A stretch of 30,270 nucleotides of DNA, taken from a virus. Below the pieces are notes generated by a model. That model was not told the DNA's origin and did no database searches. It worked only from the letters and a program-made list of their open reading frames with translations. Made by a program: the position numbers and the translations under genes. Of this stretch, positions 1 to 30,194 are shown piece by piece (position 1 is the stretch's first letter; the number at the start of each line of letters is the position of its first letter). The stretch covers positions 1 to 30,270 of the IMG/VR virus record IMGVR_UViG_3300043446_000461. One strand, 5' to 3'.

Positions 1-1104
1 GCCGTACAGGTGCGGGTTCAGAGCCGCGTGACGGCTCCGCCAATACGCCAGATCATGCGCCGCAAGCGGCAACTGCTCCAGCACCGCCACACATCCGCCG
101 GGCTTTGGTTTCGTCCTCAGAGCCGCCAGCAACTCCAGCAGACGCACCCACGCCAGAATTTTGGTGTAGTCTGTCGTTCCGGAGTGGAGCCGCACCTCCA
201 GCGTCTGGTGCGCTGAGAACGCGCACAGATTAACCGCCCGGTAGCGATCCTTCCACGAGGTGCCAAAGCGGCAGTAGCTGTTCTCCCGGCGAGACGCTGG
301 CACGAGCTCCTGAAGCGCACAGAGCCAAGCATCCATGATCTTTGCCCGCTTCTCCACCTGCGCCTCTGTCTGGCCGCGCTGGTCCAAGTGGACGTGGAGC
401 CCGCAGGAGCGGTTCACCTTCAGCCCCAGAGCCTCCAGCCGCTTGCACAGCCGGAAGAGTCGCGGCTCCAGTTCACGCCGCACGAGCAGCACCCGGACCT
501 CGTGTGCGCTGCCTTCCGTTGGGCTGATCGAGCCGTCACCCGTCACGCCTGCCCAGAGCGGCAGAGCCTCAGAGAGAGCCTTCCGGGACACCTCACCAAA
601 GCATTCGATTTCCACACCCACCGCCCGGTCATAACGGAACGTCGCCGGGCAGAGCGGCTTCGCCCTGATCCTCTGGAGAAACGTCCGCTCCTCCTGCTCC
701 GGCACCGGGAACTGTTGCCGCCACATTCTCGCCGCCTGCCGCACCACGGTCGAGTGACCCATCGCCCACATCGCCCGCCGGAGCTCCCGGTCCAGCCCGG
801 ACACGAGCACAGCCGCCCACAGCCGCCGGTCTCCCGGGACCCTGAACCGCAGAAGCGGCAGATATATGACACCGGCGTCGTCCCAGCCCTCCGGGCAACA
901 GAAAAAGAGATCACAAGCCCAGCCCGCGCAATTCGCCAAATCCTGATCCTCCGGGAAGCCCCTCTGGATCAGGAGCCGCCGGACCACAGCCCGCGCCGTG
1001 GTGGAGTTTGCTGGCATCCCGCTGTGAACGCTGAAGCGTCCATCTTCACAAGCGGCCACAGCCTGAGCCCAGCCGCGAACGTATTTTTCGAACGTGTTTT
1101 TCAT
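1..1104 (-). CDS. Amidoligase-family protein (Amidoligase_2-like), C-terminus cut by window edge
   Basis: The minus frame from the ATG at 1104 is open for 368 codons to the left edge. Residues 160-325 carry the signature of the glutamine-synthetase-fold amidoligase family: GVEIEC (163-168), DGS (190-192), HEVRV (201-205), CGLHVH (234-239), YCRFG (277-281), VNL (291-293) and LEVRLHSGT (302-310). Known members are predicted ATP-dependent ligases forming amide bonds between a carboxylate and an amine, for peptide or cell-wall modification; the substrate here is unknown. Residues 1-155 form an unrecognised N-terminal domain. An in-frame stop lies upstream at 1150-1152, so 1104 is the only ATG start. 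No SD is seen. Codon use is much more GC-rich than in the phage genes from 1835 onward, suggesting separate origin. The antisense frame gives a long proline/histidine/arginine-rich shadow ORF. Family assignment rests on motif spacing read by eye. Confidence 0.85.
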   Translation of the reverse strand, partial: MKNTFEKYVRGWAQAVAACEDGRFSVHSGMPANSTTARAVVRRLLIQRGFPEDQDLANCAGWACDLFFCCPEGWDDAGVIYLPLLRFRVPGDRRLWAAVLVSGLDRELRRAMWAMGHSTVVRQAARMWRQQFPVPEQEERTFLQRIRAKPLCPATFRYDRAVGVEIECFGEVSRKALSEALPLWAGVTGDGSISPTEGSAHEVRVLLVRRELEPRLFRLCKRLEALGLKVNRSCGLHVHLDQRGQTEAQVEKRAKIMDAWLCALQELVPASRRENSYCRFGTSWKDRYRAVNLCAFSAHQTLEVRLHSGTTDYTKILAWVRLLELLAALRTKPKPGGCVAVLEQLPLAAHDLAYWRSRHAALNPHLYG

Positions 1105-1834: not shown

Positions 1835-2374
1835 ATGGGAAGGAAGAAGATAAGTGACTTGGCTAAGTCTGTTGCTGACAATGGCAACGGGAAGGGCAAC
1901 TATCTGGAGAGGCGTGACCCTGCTACGGCTGTTAAGGCTCTGGATATGCTGGCTAATGGGGACAGCTTCCATACGGTGAGTAAGGCTACGGGGTTGACAT
2001 GGGAGACGGTTAGTCGGCTAAAGGCTAGGCACAAGATGGTGTTGGATGAGCGTAGGGCTATGCTGGCGGAGGATGCTCTGGAGATTGCGGAGGGTTTAAG
2101 GCTTCTTCAGAAGGAGAAGATGCGGATGTTGGCGGAGGACCCTGAGCAGTTGGCGCGGACTAACATCAGGGACCTAACCCTTCCTTGGGGGATAGCTCAG
2201 GACAAGTTCCTGTCGGCTATGGGGGAGAACAAAGTGACCATTGAGCACAAGACGGCGGCTCCTAGCCTAGAGGACGCCATGAAAGCGATTGAGGAGGCTA
2301 GGGCCAAGCTCAAGGCTGGTTCTATGGAAGTTATTACGAAGGACGTAACAAATGAACCTACCCAACAAGAATAA
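1835..2374 (+). CDS. terS: Terminase small subunit (probable)
   Basis: A 179-residue protein directly before the large terminase, so probably the DNA-recognition subunit of the packaging motor. Residues 43-66 look like a helix-turn-helix (GDSFHTVSKATGLTWETVSR and following basic residues). The middle is strongly helical and charged, as expected for the oligomerisation region, and the C-terminus is acidic/polar. The ATG at 1835 is preceded by AAGGAG (1827-1832) with unusually short spacing of two bases. A longer in-frame version from TTG 1775 exists but lacks an SD. The stop overlaps the next gene by 23 bases. Position and HTH support the call; small terminases diverge greatly, so sequence alone is not proof. 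Confidence 0.7.
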   Translation: MGRKKISDLAKSVADNGNGKGNYLERRDPATAVKALDMLANGDSFHTVSKATGLTWETVSRLKARHKMVLDERRAMLAEDALEIAEGLRLLQKEKMRMLAEDPEQLARTNIRDLTLPWGIAQDKFLSAMGENKVTIEHKTAAPSLEDAMKAIEEARAKLKAGSMEVITKDVTNEPTQQE

Positions 2375-2525
2375 GAGGCTGGCTTTTGAGTTTCAGAAGA
2401 TTCTGCTGAGCCGTGCCATCAACGCTCTCTGCAAGGCTACGGACTTAAGCCGTGAGGAGATTTTCGAGTGGTTGATTGATGGTGAGAAGTGGGACGGGGT
2501 TAAATACAAGGACGGCCCTAAGTGA
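2352..2525 (+). CDS. Small protein between terminase genes (57 aa), unknown function
   Basis: A 57-codon frame starting MNLPNKNKR and ending KYKDGPK. It begins inside the end of the small terminase gene and its TGA overlaps the GTG start of the large terminase (GTGA), so the three genes look translationally coupled. AAGGA lies 7-8 bases before its ATG. The sequence is mostly helical, with a segment resembling a small helix-turn-helix (LCKATDLSREEIFEWLIDGE). No family recognised; it might be an accessory packaging or DNA-binding factor, which is inference from position only. Confidence 0.7.
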   Translation: MNLPNKNKRLAFEFQKILLSRAINALCKATDLSREEIFEWLIDGEKWDGVKYKDGPK

Positions 2526-4135
2526 GTTTGGTTTGGGAAAGGCATGAGGTGCTGAGTCCGCCGACCGATGCGGAGTTGGCGGCTATGTCCCCAGAGGACG
2601 TTCTCAAGCTCCATGAGGTTTACCATTCGGCCATCGCGAATAGCAAACGCGATCCGTACAGGTATGGGTGGAAGCTCCCCCATTGGAAGGACGCGGAGGA
2701 GTTGCTGTCTACGCATTCCGAGCTTCTGGTGAGCGGAGGCAATCGTAGTGGAAAGACAAGCTGGGCGGCTCACGCCGTCGTAAGGGCTGCGGTGGAGAAT
2801 CCACAGTCCACCATCATGTGCTTTGCCCAGAATGCGGATGTGTCCATCCGTCAGCAGCAGAGTGCCGTATACGATGCGTTGCCAGAGGAGTACAGGGTGA
2901 AGGTGTTAGGAACTGAGGAGAACGTGTCCTATACGAGAAAGAATGGCTTTAGTAAGTCCTCGCTCATCCTTCCCGGCAGTAAGAGCTCCATCATCTTCAA
3001 AACCTATGCACAATTCCTCAACAATGACACTATTCTTGAAGGTGCTGAGCTTGGGTGCCGCGATCCTAAGTGGCTTAACATTGGGGCTTGGTGTGACGAA
3101 TATCTCGTCGGGCCTGAGCTTCTTGCTACTCTTCGTTTTCGCCTTGCCACTCGGAATAGCAAGCTGGTGGTCACTTTCACTCCTATCGACGGCTACACAG
3201 AGGTCGTTAGAGACTACGTCCAATCCGCCGAAACTATCAGAAGCAAACAAGCAGAGCTCTTGGGAGGGCGTTCGGTTCCTTACCTGCAACGATCCAAGAA
3301 CAGGGATGCAGGGATCATCTACTTCCACAGTAGGGACAATCCCTTCGGTGGTTATGACCGCATCTCCAAAGACCTAGCTGGTAGGCCAGAGCCTGAGATT
3401 CTTACCCGAGCTTATGGCATCGCCACCAAGTCGATGTCCACCAAGTTCCCCAACTTCTCGCGGGAGATTAATGTAGTTCCCCATGAGAAGATTGATCTGA
3501 AGGGGAAGACCAAGTACATGATCTTGGACCCTGCTGGCAGGAAGAACTGGTTCATGTGCTGGGTGGCTATTGATGAGACGGACACTTGGTATGTCTATCG
3601 GGAATGGCCCGACACGAACGTAGGGGATTGGGCCAAGTGGTCTGGAGGTAAGTGGTCCAGCGGAGAAGGAGCCAAGGGGCTGGGCTACGGAATAAAAGAC
3701 TACGTTGAACTAATTACCAGCATGGAGTCCGAAACCAAGGACACCATCTTTGAGCGACTCATCGACCCTCGTCTAGGTGCAGCCAAATATCAGACACAAG
3801 ACGGCGCATCGTCCATTATAGAAGACCTTGCGGATGCGGGGCTGGTATTCATCCCTGCTCCCGGCATTGACATTGAGGATGGCATTCAGGCTTTGCAAAC
3901 AAAGTTTGCCTACAACAAGAAGAATCCGATAGACTCCATCAATAGACCCCACTTCTACATTTCTGAACGCTGCCAGAACATCATCTCAGCCCTACAGGAG
4001 TACACGGCTGAGGGTGGACAGGATGAGGCATGGAAGGACCCGATTGATGTGATCCGCTACCTAGCAGTAAGCGGAGTTGGGTATGTTTCCCCAGAATCAA
4101 TGCAAACCAAGGTTGGAACGCGAGGAGGCTACTAA
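2522..4135 (+). CDS. terL: Terminase large subunit
   Basis: A 537-residue packaging motor with ATPase and nuclease domains. Walker A is GGNRSGKT (72-79); Walker B is the hydrophobic run ending CDEY with D192/E193; the coupling motif is VVTFTP (216-221). The RNase H-like nuclease shows a first acid in MILDPAG (D336), a second in LIDPRLG (D415) and a third in DPIDVIRYL (probably D509), matching the family layout. Length is normal. The start is GTG at 2522 overlapping the stop of the preceding small gene, with AAGGA about nine bases upstream; an ATG start is not available nearby. It cuts concatemeric DNA and drives it through the portal encoded at 4626. Nothing appears truncated. Confidence 0.97.
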   Translation: MSLVWERHEVLSPPTDAELAAMSPEDVLKLHEVYHSAIANSKRDPYRYGWKLPHWKDAEELLSTHSELLVSGGNRSGKTSWAAHAVVRAAVENPQSTIMCFAQNADVSIRQQQSAVYDALPEEYRVKVLGTEENVSYTRKNGFSKSSLILPGSKSSIIFKTYAQFLNNDTILEGAELGCRDPKWLNIGAWCDEYLVGPELLATLRFRLATRNSKLVVTFTPIDGYTEVVRDYVQSAETIRSKQAELLGGRSVPYLQRSKNRDAGIIYFHSRDNPFGGYDRISKDLAGRPEPEILTRAYGIATKSMSTKFPNFSREINVVPHEKIDLKGKTKYMILDPAGRKNWFMCWVAIDETDTWYVYREWPDTNVGDWAKWSGGKWSSGEGAKGLGYGIKDYVELITSMESETKDTIFERLIDPRLGAAKYQTQDGASSIIEDLADAGLVFIPAPGIDIEDGIQALQTKFAYNKKNPIDSINRPHFYISERCQNIISALQEYTAEGGQDEAWKDPIDVIRYLAVSGVGYVSPESMQTKVGTRGGY

Positions 4136-4419: not shown

Positions 4420-4666
4420 TCTAACAACCGATAAGAAGTGGTTGTTGGCTCATTCAGACAGGCTAATAGCCTATGAGTATGTGAGGATGGCGCAAACTGG
4501 AAGCCATGTGGAGATGTTTCCAGACGAGTTGGCGGACAGGATTGGCCGACCCAAAGAGTACGTCACTAACATCATAAAGAACGCCCTCTCACACGCTAAG
4601 GAATGCTATCATTCCCAGCAAGCCTATGCAAGAAACCAAGTCGCAACACGCCCTGACATTCGTTGA
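4397..4666 (+). CDS. Hypothetical protein, 89 aa, possible helix-turn-helix
   Basis: The frame begins MSKANPIDL at 4397, inside the end of the upstream gene (23-base overlap), and extends 41 bases into the portal gene. A longer in-frame ORF from 4301 overlaps the neighbour too much to be credible. Residues from about 44 on, DELADRIGRPKEYVTNIIKN, resemble a helix-turn-helix, followed by a histidine/glutamine-rich tail. No SD precedes the start. It may be a small DNA-binding protein; function not known. Confidence 0.6.
   Translation: MSKANPIDLTTDKKWLLAHSDRLIAYEYVRMAQTGSHVEMFPDELADRIGRPKEYVTNIIKNALSHAKECYHSQQAYARNQVATRPDIR
4604..4612 (+). promoter_or_regulatory. Weak extended -10-like element before portal gene
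   Basis: TGCTATCAT lies 13 bases before the portal ATG and resembles the TGnTAnAAT elements at 7093, 9240, 10355 and 15220, with one mismatch. No -35 is evident. It sits inside the upstream coding sequence, so confidence is low. Confidence 0.25.
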
Positions 4667-6716
4667 CCAAGAAGGTCCAGACGTGGTTGCGCTGCGCGGT
4701 GCGTATGATCGTACCCTAAGCGAGCTTTCCACCTACTTCAACCAATGTATCAGTAGCTCAGACAACCGCCGTTGCTATTGGCCGGGTAAGTCCACCGATA
4801 TGCGTAAGCATGGGGCGGACGCCTTCCCGTGGGAAGGGGCTTCTGATACGGAGGCCCGCATCATTGACGAGCGAATCAACAACTACGTTTCGCTCTTCAT
4901 GTCGTCTCTGGCTAGGGCGAACATCCGTGCCTATCCGACCGAGCATTCGGACACGGGACGGGCTCGCGTTGTTTCTGCCTTCCTTAAGTGGATGGTGGCT
5001 TCCTACATCCCCCGCTTCCGTCAGGAGATGGAACTGGGAGCCAACTACTTCCTTGAGCGTGGGCTGATGATTACCTACATCGGCTGGGAGCGCATGGAGA
5101 AGAAGTATCTCCAGAAGATTGATTTGAACCAGATTGCGGTGAGTTCGCCAGACTTGGCTCGGCTCATCATCGAAGGAAAGAACGACGACGACATCATCAA
5201 GATGTTCAAGTCCGTCTACCCCGATCTGGTGGACAAGCGGGCTAAGAAGGCTCTGAAGGAACTTCGTGAGAAGGGTGTCGGAGAAATCCCTGTAAGCCGT
5301 CTGTCTGTTGATCGTCCGTTCTTGCAGACCTGCGCTCCTGACGGGGATGTGTTCTTCCCGTCCTACTGCATCGACCCGCAGCGTGCTCCGTTCGTCTTCT
5401 ATCGCACCTTCCTGTCCGTGCAGGAGGTCTTGTCCCGCGTTACGTCTGATGGATGGGATGAGTCTTGGGCGGAACACGTCTGCTCCAAGTATCGCGGCGT
5501 AAACACCTACAATCTGGAGAGCGTCTACGGCACCCGTGGGTTGTCGTATGGGCGTTATCGCCAGCAGTACAACGCCAACGAGCTCATTGAGGTGGTTTAC
5601 GGCTTCCAGCGTCTCATCGACTCTGAGGATGGCTCTGAGGGCATCTACTGCACCATCTTCCATCCCAAGTGGTCTGGGTCGAACGAAGTTAAAGGCTACG
5701 CCAAGTTTGAGCTTCTGAACGGCTACAACGACTATCCGTTCGTTGTCACCCGTCTAAGCAACGACTCCAAGCGGATGTACGAGCTTCAGACGTTCTCCGA
5801 CCTTCTGCGTGGTCCGCAGGATCAGGTGAAGGCAGAGCGTGATAGCCGCACCGACCGTAACAGTCTGGCGACCCTCCCTCCCATCCTCCATCCTCCGGGC
5901 AACGCTCCCTCGGACTATGGTCCGGGTCGTTATATCCCGATCCGTCGTGCGGGAGAAATCAGCTTTGGACCCACCCCTCCGTACAATCCGGGCTCCGTAG
6001 AGATGGAGCGGACGATGATTGGGGCTGCGGACAAGATTGTCGGCCTAGCCGTTGACGATCCTCTTTCTCCGATTCGTCAGCAGTACTTCGTCAACAAGTT
6101 CCTCTCCCACGCACAGGATGTCATTAAGATGGCGTTCAAGTGCTACCAGAGGTTCGGCCCCGATCAGGTGTTCTTCCGCGTCACGGGAGTGGCTGATCCC
6201 ATGCGTTTCGACAAGGGCAACCCTGATGAGGACTTCGACATCAAAATAAGCTTTGATGTGCTGAACAACGATCCTGATACGCAGGAGGCTCGCCTTGGTC
6301 AGTTTGTCAATCTGTTGCAACTGGACAAGAATGGCCGCATCAATGCGGATAGCCTATTGGAGTCTATGGCCGCTGCCATTGACCCCATCATGGCCGACGC
6401 CATCCTCCAGCCCGCAGAACAGGCTTCCCAGCAGGTTGTAAAGATGGTCACGGACGACCTCTCCAAGATTTTTGCTGGCATTGAAATGCCCGCTCGTCCC
6501 AACGGTGCTCAGATTGCCCTACAGGTCATCCAGCAGTATGTGGCCCAGCCTGATGTGGCTCAGCGTCTCCAGCAGGATGAAGCCTTCCGTGGTCGTCTGG
6601 AGAAGTATGCCCAGCAGTACCAGTTTGCGCTCACTCAGATGCAAAATGCTCAGATTGGGCGTATTGGAACCGCTCCTGCACAGATGGGTGGGATGACCAC
6701 TCAGAATATGCAGTAG
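4626..6716 (+). CDS. Portal (head-tail connector) protein, P22-like
   Basis: A 696-residue protein, close to the size of P22-type portals. The early PWEGASD motif (68-74) followed by a helix with DERINNY is characteristic of this portal family. The C-terminal 120 residues are glutamine-rich and helical (QQYVAQPDVAQRL), as expected for the barrel or crown. Twelve copies would form the ring through which the terminase loads DNA and to which the adaptor attaches. It overlaps the preceding gene by 41 bases; ATG 4626 is the first plausible start and has no SD. The next ATG would remove conserved sequence. It is followed by a 109-base gap containing a hairpin. Confidence 0.92.
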   Translation: MQETKSQHALTFVDQEGPDVVALRGAYDRTLSELSTYFNQCISSSDNRRCYWPGKSTDMRKHGADAFPWEGASDTEARIIDERINNYVSLFMSSLARANIRAYPTEHSDTGRARVVSAFLKWMVASYIPRFRQEMELGANYFLERGLMITYIGWERMEKKYLQKIDLNQIAVSSPDLARLIIEGKNDDDIIKMFKSVYPDLVDKRAKKALKELREKGVGEIPVSRLSVDRPFLQTCAPDGDVFFPSYCIDPQRAPFVFYRTFLSVQEVLSRVTSDGWDESWAEHVCSKYRGVNTYNLESVYGTRGLSYGRYRQQYNANELIEVVYGFQRLIDSEDGSEGIYCTIFHPKWSGSNEVKGYAKFELLNGYNDYPFVVTRLSNDSKRMYELQTFSDLLRGPQDQVKAERDSRTDRNSLATLPPILHPPGNAPSDYGPGRYIPIRRAGEISFGPTPPYNPGSVEMERTMIGAADKIVGLAVDDPLSPIRQQYFVNKFLSHAQDVIKMAFKCYQRFGPDQVFFRVTGVADPMRFDKGNPDEDFDIKISFDVLNNDPDTQEARLGQFVNLLQLDKNGRINADSLLESMAAAIDPIMADAILQPAEQASQQVVKMVTDDLSKIFAGIEMPARPNGAQIALQVIQQYVAQPDVAQRLQQDEAFRGRLEKYAQQYQFALTQMQNAQIGRIGTAPAQMGGMTTQNMQ

Positions 6717-29741: not shown

Positions 29742-30194
29742 TCAGAAAGGATTGTTGTTTTGCTTAACTGGCTTGCTTTCAACTTTTGGTGCGCTTGGCG
29801 CAACTCTTCCGCTAGCCGCATTCCCGTCGTCGTCCTCCTGAGTGATGCACATAAGTGCAGCGAGTGAGTATCGGCGCAGGTATGTAGTAGCACTTCCAAC
29901 TCCTTGCGGGTCAGCTTTGGGCAAGGGGCTGAAGGCGGTGTCTTCGATCCATTGGCCTGAAGAGTGGATGGCGCGAGTTGACAAATGAAGTCCCGTCTCT
30001 CCCTCAGCGAGCGTTTGGAGGATGACAATCCCGTGCTTGTTGCACGGCTCCTTGATTGCTTCGATGACCGATCCGAGACTTGCGTAGGAGCTACGGAAGT
30101 GCGGGTTCTTGGCGTCTTTCGAGGCATTGTTGATTTCCTTCTGAGCAGCCAGCAACGCTGGCGCAATGAGGTCAATTTTTTCCGAGGTCTTCAT
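29742..30194 (-). CDS. erf: ERF-family single-strand annealing protein
   Basis: A 150-residue recombinase mediator with the ERF core: KNPHFRSSYASLGSVIEAIK (29-48), ADPQGVGSATTYLRRYSLAA (94-113) and the acidic TQEDDDGN (118-125). The C-terminus is a disordered Lys/Pro/Asn tail ending NNPF, like the tail tips by which such proteins contact SSB or partners. It anneals complementary single strands during phage recombination and replication, probably with the PD-(D/E)XK exonuclease encoded downstream. No SD; its ATG overlaps the end of a partial upstream gene by 23 bases. Confidence 0.93.
   Translation of the reverse strand: MKTSEKIDLIAPALLAAQKEINNASKDAKNPHFRSSYASLGSVIEAIKEPCNKHGIVILQTLAEGETGLHLSTRAIHSSGQWIEDTAFSPLPKADPQGVGSATTYLRRYSLAALMCITQEDDDGNAASGRVAPSAPKVESKPVKQNNNPF

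Follow-up and report, generated by a model that had tools for sequence, protein, structure and literature searches.

An amidoligase gene cut by the end of a viral contig

Phage amidoligases are widespread, without a proven target. The DNA analysed here, a virus record of 30,270 bases and possibly a fragment (hereafter the window), carries at its left end a minus-strand frame that starts at ATG and stays open for 368 codons (1104..1). The gene is severed at base 1; relative to its 376-aa homologue in the related contig L003, eight codons and the stop are missing (Table 1). The original prediction placed the gene at the left edge of a phage genome; the sequence establishes the left edge of a contig, possibly a fragment, and not the genome start.

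The encoded protein matched the Pfam family Amidoligase_2 (PF12224; 55.2 bits at E 1.3e-14, the Pfam gathering score being 22) and PHROG 2443 'amidoligase enzyme' (E 2.1e-21). The family had originally been proposed from the motifs GVEIEC, DGS, CGLHVH, VNL and LEVRLHSGT, all five of which were found in that order in the minus frame, and both the family match and the fold described below bore the proposal out. As homologues at 36–93% identity are present in dozens of viral contigs, the frame lies far beyond chance, and on sequence evidence it is a genuine, functional Amidoligase_2 gene. Bacterial and archaeal genomes scanned with a narrow ligase alignment (a pattern scan that reaches close relatives only) yielded no homologues.

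Across 27 aligned ligases (35–93% identity), E165, E167, D190-G191-S192, E202, R215, N231, S233, H237, H239 and D241 were invariant, as were S271-R272-R273, R287, E303, R305, S308, T310 and K315. The ExE, DGS, HxH and ExR motifs of Amidoligase_2 are thus all kept, and their residues may be given individual roles by analogy. Comparison with the L003 ligase (93% identical) revealed 76 synonymous codon differences and 26 residue-changing ones; of these 26, 20 fall within residues 1–156 and just six in the 212-residue catalytic part. The catalytic core is under purifying selection. At the nucleotide level, bases 1–150 of the window are 100% identical to L003, the remaining ligase gene is ~79–92% identical in bins of 150 bases, and the terminase genes reach ~94–99%, placing a mosaic boundary inside the ligase gene.

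Table 1. Coordinates of the ligase gene, its parts and motifs, and the adjoining terminase genes in the window
Feature	Position	Strand	Basis
Amidoligase_2 gene, 368 of ~376 codons, 3′ end lost at contig end	1..1104	-	Complete homologue L003:1811-2941
Catalytic part, residues 157-368, predicted to be glutamine synthetase-like	1..636	-	Conserved columns; model region 157-373 matching glutamine synthetases
N-terminal part, residues 1-156, fast-evolving	637..1104	-	Alignment; low-confidence model when folded alone
GVEIEC motif (ExE; E165/E167 invariant)	601..618	-	Sequence and alignment
DGS motif (D190-S192 invariant)	529..537	-	Sequence and alignment
CGLHVH motif (H237, H239 invariant)	388..405	-	Sequence and alignment
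VNL motif	226..234	-	Sequence and alignment
LEVRLHSGT motif (E303, R305, S308, T310 invariant)	175..201	-	Sequence and alignment
Presumed small terminase subunit (TerS; by position and synteny), divergent neighbour of the ligase	1835..2374	+	100% identical in L003
Terminase large subunit (TerL)	2522..4135	+	PHROG 2 terminase large subunit, E 3.8e-15

The catalytic part is predicted to adopt a glutamine synthetase fold

An AlphaFold2 model was built on the full-length L003 ligase from a 27-row alignment and reached a pLDDT of 84.6 overall and ~90 or more over residues 161–360. The top four solved structures returned by Foldseek for this model were glutamine synthetases (E 2.3e-4 to 9e-4), and VIA-align superposed the model on a glutamine synthetase with Z 13.0 (rmsd 3.5 Å, 201 residues) and on YbdK with Z 12.3, all structural matches being confined to ligase residues 157–373. 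Searching solved structures by ligase sequence gave no match. The catalytic part is thus predicted to adopt the glutamine synthetase fold, as the original proposal required.

The 155-residue N-terminal part that could originally not be placed proved real, with a start methionine nearly invariant across the family. It diverges fast; the relatives have a 'GLPxxxxTA' motif in common and little else in the alignment. Folded alone, residues 1–156 gave a pLDDT of 54.8, too low for a fold search.

In relatives, a class-II glutamine amidotransferase follows the ligase gene

L003 matches the layout of the window up to the window end and then continues. Two bp past the ligase stop lies a gene for a 256-residue protein beginning MCKIIIL (P0003, L003:2944-3714), which matched GATase_6 (E 1.5e-13, 51.3 bits, cut-off 27). 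Invariant among 22 homologues are C2 (right after the start methionine), R87, N113-G114 and D129, and the profile of the protein aligns to the GlmS glutaminase over the HTRWATHG...HP...HNG stretch (HxRxAT, HP, HNG). Judged from these features, the product is a class-II (Ntn-type) glutamine amidotransferase. Plain tblastn of the phage collection with the amidotransferase identified no close relatives at E 1e-5, and a bacterial and archaeal genome scan with the amidotransferase pattern, which reaches close relatives only, gave one weak match.

The expectation that an amidotransferase or cyclotransferase gene would sit just left of the window holds in its relatives, with an amidotransferase gene at that place in L003, L005, L006 and every other untruncated close relative. 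A Pfam scan of L003 proteins, which took in part of the small ORFs on this contig fragment, detected neither a cyclotransferase nor an ATP-grasp protein. An amidotransferase linked to QueC (7-deazaguanine) was also considered and found no support: the PP-loop-like gene of L003 (4261–5184) matches PAPS_reduct below the cut-off only, and no such gene adjoins the pair in L005 or L006. In L018, L021, L028 and L036, no Shine-Dalgarno-like sequence directly precedes the amidotransferase start; their A-rich leaders (such as aaacaaacat-ATG) hint at hosts with weak use of this signal.

The pair is constant in content and order

Relatives were gathered by amidoligase alone and by amidotransferase alone, and all frames were scored with both profiles. 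In the close set (34 distinct amidoligases at E < 1e-70, the window included), an amidotransferase gene lies directly downstream on the same strand, 1–77 nt off, in 31 cases; the other three ligase genes, including that of the window itself, end at a contig edge, so that all 31 untruncated ones have the partner. Most members of this set have TerS and TerL in common too, so the loci do not count as independent and the set is largely one phage lineage. In the wider set, an amidotransferase gene was found within 400 nt in 54 of 66 loci, and the loci gathered by amidoligase alone gave the same pairing. Of the 66 loci, 29 have the presumed TerS cluster beside the pair and 30 that of TerL. The pair has the same orientation as the terminase in 21 loci and the opposite one in nine (TerL + and -, respectively), and the order of ligase, then amidotransferase, is constant in either case.

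Nine distant relatives lacked a partner recognisable by the amidotransferase profile, and the Porphyromonas and Bacillus phage amidoligases examined had no annotated amidotransferase within 4 kb. Some ligases may thus use another amine. Two Arthrobacter phages, Ottawa and Salgado, have the same gene order, and the profiles show the Ottawa proteins to be homologues of the ligase and the amidotransferase, so the pairing reaches beyond the lineage.

A probable two-protein amidating enzyme

The constancy of the pair speaks for a joint action of ligase and amidotransferase as a single enzyme. In their established chemistry, amidotransferases of this kind free ammonia from glutamine, and glutamine synthetase-like ligases make an acyl phosphate. 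We consider it probable that the ligase acts as the synthetase component of a glutamine-dependent amidating enzyme made of two proteins, with the partner freeing the ammonia. In the phage of the window, the amidotransferase would be encoded immediately downstream, just outside the contig, its presence there being presumed from the relatives. Its N-terminal Cys would hydrolyse glutamine to yield ammonia, the amidoligase, with ATP and metal ions, would convert a carboxylate into an activated acyl phosphate in the manner of glutamine synthetase, and attack of the ammonia on this intermediate would produce a carboxamide. Whereas the family, the fold prediction, the invariant active-site residues, the selection on the gene and the constancy of the pair in relatives are direct results, we infer for the pair the formation of a complex, the transfer of ammonia and the chemistry of the reaction.

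As to the acceptor, our leading guess, held with low confidence, is that the enzyme would amidate an acidic residue in a peptide of the cell surface or the peptidoglycan and so change the envelope of the infected cell; a protein of phage or host comes second. The original proposal had named a peptide, a virion protein or a cell-wall component. We rank the envelope first, since acidic peptides there would be fitting substrates for an amidating enzyme. An envelope modification that blocks superinfection has been proposed for phiEco32, a proposal credited to Iyer et al. 2009 in two later papers (PMC10580990, PMC11318856). The literature surveyed contained only two ideas on the target, envelope modification and host nitrogen metabolism, neither proven for the ligase itself, and no biochemical test of a phage Amidoligase_2 protein was found in it.

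Alternatively, the ligase might join the amine of an amino acid or peptide to a carboxylate, a tagging reaction like that of PafA or glutamate-cysteine ligase, with the amidotransferase acting in a linked step instead of feeding ammonia. Enzymes that use amines or proteins as acceptors do belong to the glutamine synthetase-like superfamily, and YbdK scored nearly as well as glutamine synthetase in the fold comparison. The ligase tail, too, recalls carboxylate donors such as Pup. It ends in Glu in 29 of 33 distinct close relatives, as do 17 of 297 (5.7%) other ORFs on the same contigs, a contrast between related sequences that overstates the number of independent events; the tail of the window's own ligase lies past the contig end, and all these counts come from relatives. 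Nonetheless, a class-II amidotransferase gene constantly adjacent on the same strand fits an ammonia supply best, and neither a peptide-tag gene nor a protease was recognised among the conserved neighbours (most of them unannotated), making amine joining unlikely, if conceivable.

More doubtful still is a role as auxiliary metabolic genes, in which the pair would make a small nitrogen metabolite or a glutathione-like peptide and thereby aid host nitrogen metabolism during infection. Such a role has been proposed for a planctomycete phage with amidoligase, amidotransferase, glutathione synthase and cyclotransferase genes (PMC10945688). The L003 proteins scanned, however, included neither of the ATP-grasp and cyclotransferase types, and the pair adjoins the terminase and no recognisable metabolic cluster.

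The Glu-ended tail, if flexible, could also mark Pup-like self-tagging, with the C-terminal Glu providing the carboxylate that is amidated or conjugated by the ligase's own or a neighbouring active site, which we regard as very unlikely. The four exceptions among 33 mean that a terminal Glu is not obligatory, and more distant relatives and the Arthrobacter ligases end in other residues. The tail before the terminal Glu varies in length and sequence (L003:2915-2941; homologues, e.g. L021, L028 and L038), and three of 31 partner amidotransferases end in Glu. Overlap with a Shine-Dalgarno sequence was rejected as the cause of the terminal Glu, as the partner starts 1–77 nt on and the stop contexts differ (GAA-TAA, GAG-TGA, GAG-TAA).

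Base composition and neighbouring genes

In the window, the G+C content of the ligase gene is 64.9% compared to 52.0% right of base 1774. Despite this step, it is extremely improbable that this end belongs to bacterial DNA joined to the phage at a prophage or assembly junction: in L003, DNA of lower G+C content (50.9%) lies on either side of the pair (65.8%), the contig runs on into phage genes, with those for DnaB and ThyX on the far side, and the pair is kept beside the terminase in ~30 viral contigs. The step thus marks the pair and not a host junction. In L005 and L006, pair and flanks are alike at ~48%. The step would fit an exchange that brought the pair from a G+C-rich relative into the sub-lineage of the window.

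Further observations concern the surrounding DNA. Between the ligase and TerS genes lies a cluster of imperfect, CTAGGGTGTTTCCCCTAGGGG-like repeats (1489–1596), with similar repeats at the same place in L003; as single-stranded DNA, the cluster folds no better than shuffled sequences, and it could be a regulatory or packaging site. The protein in portal position (4626–6716, +) is 93% identical to that of L017, the terminase of which is only 66% identical, a contrast that by sequence comparison is module exchange within the lineage. Near the right end, the window encodes an ERF-family recombination protein (29742–30194, -; E 2.3e-27), which, together with DnaB and ThyX in L003, points to a missing genome portion that would link the two ends of the contig.

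Comparison with known systems

Amidoligase and amidotransferase genes have been reported earlier in LUZ24-like, OM43 and other phages (PMC3890496, PMC3517423, PMC10580990). The present pair is a new lineage of this already published phage kit, minimal in content and with the Glu-ended tail as an unusual feature. The LUZ24-like phages UFV-P2 and tf and the OM43 phages MEP401 and MEP402 likewise combine a PF12224 amidoligase and a PF13522 glutamine amidotransferase in one genome. In UFV-P2, the two (ORF23 and ORF25) are near each other on the same strand, but an HNH gene lies between them and the phage also has COOH-NH2 ligase, ATP-grasp and AIG2/GGCT-like genes, whereas in the L003 lineage the pair stands alone beside the terminase, 2 bp apart in L003. 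The lineage represents the kit in a clean form reduced to two genes, which stays constant among divergent viruses from the environment.

At the level of the proteins, glutamine synthetase and YbdK-type glutamate-cysteine ligases resemble the phage ligase in the predicted fold of residues 157–373 (Z 12–13) and in conserved acidic, His and Arg positions, but are only ~10–14% identical to it, and the N-terminal part of the phage ligase is different. Similarly, the partner has the N-terminal Cys and the HxRxAT, HP and HNG motifs of the GlmS and AsnB glutaminase domains, yet stands alone without a fused synthetase, the amidoligase presumably taking that place. In the Arthrobacter phages Ottawa (gp65–gp66) and Salgado (gp98–gp99), an amidoligase is followed on the same strand by a 'glutamine amidotransferase domain protein'; their ligases differ in having ~26–30% identity, a shorter, different N-terminal region and no Glu-ended tail. 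As these phages are cultured, they offer a way to approach the target experimentally.
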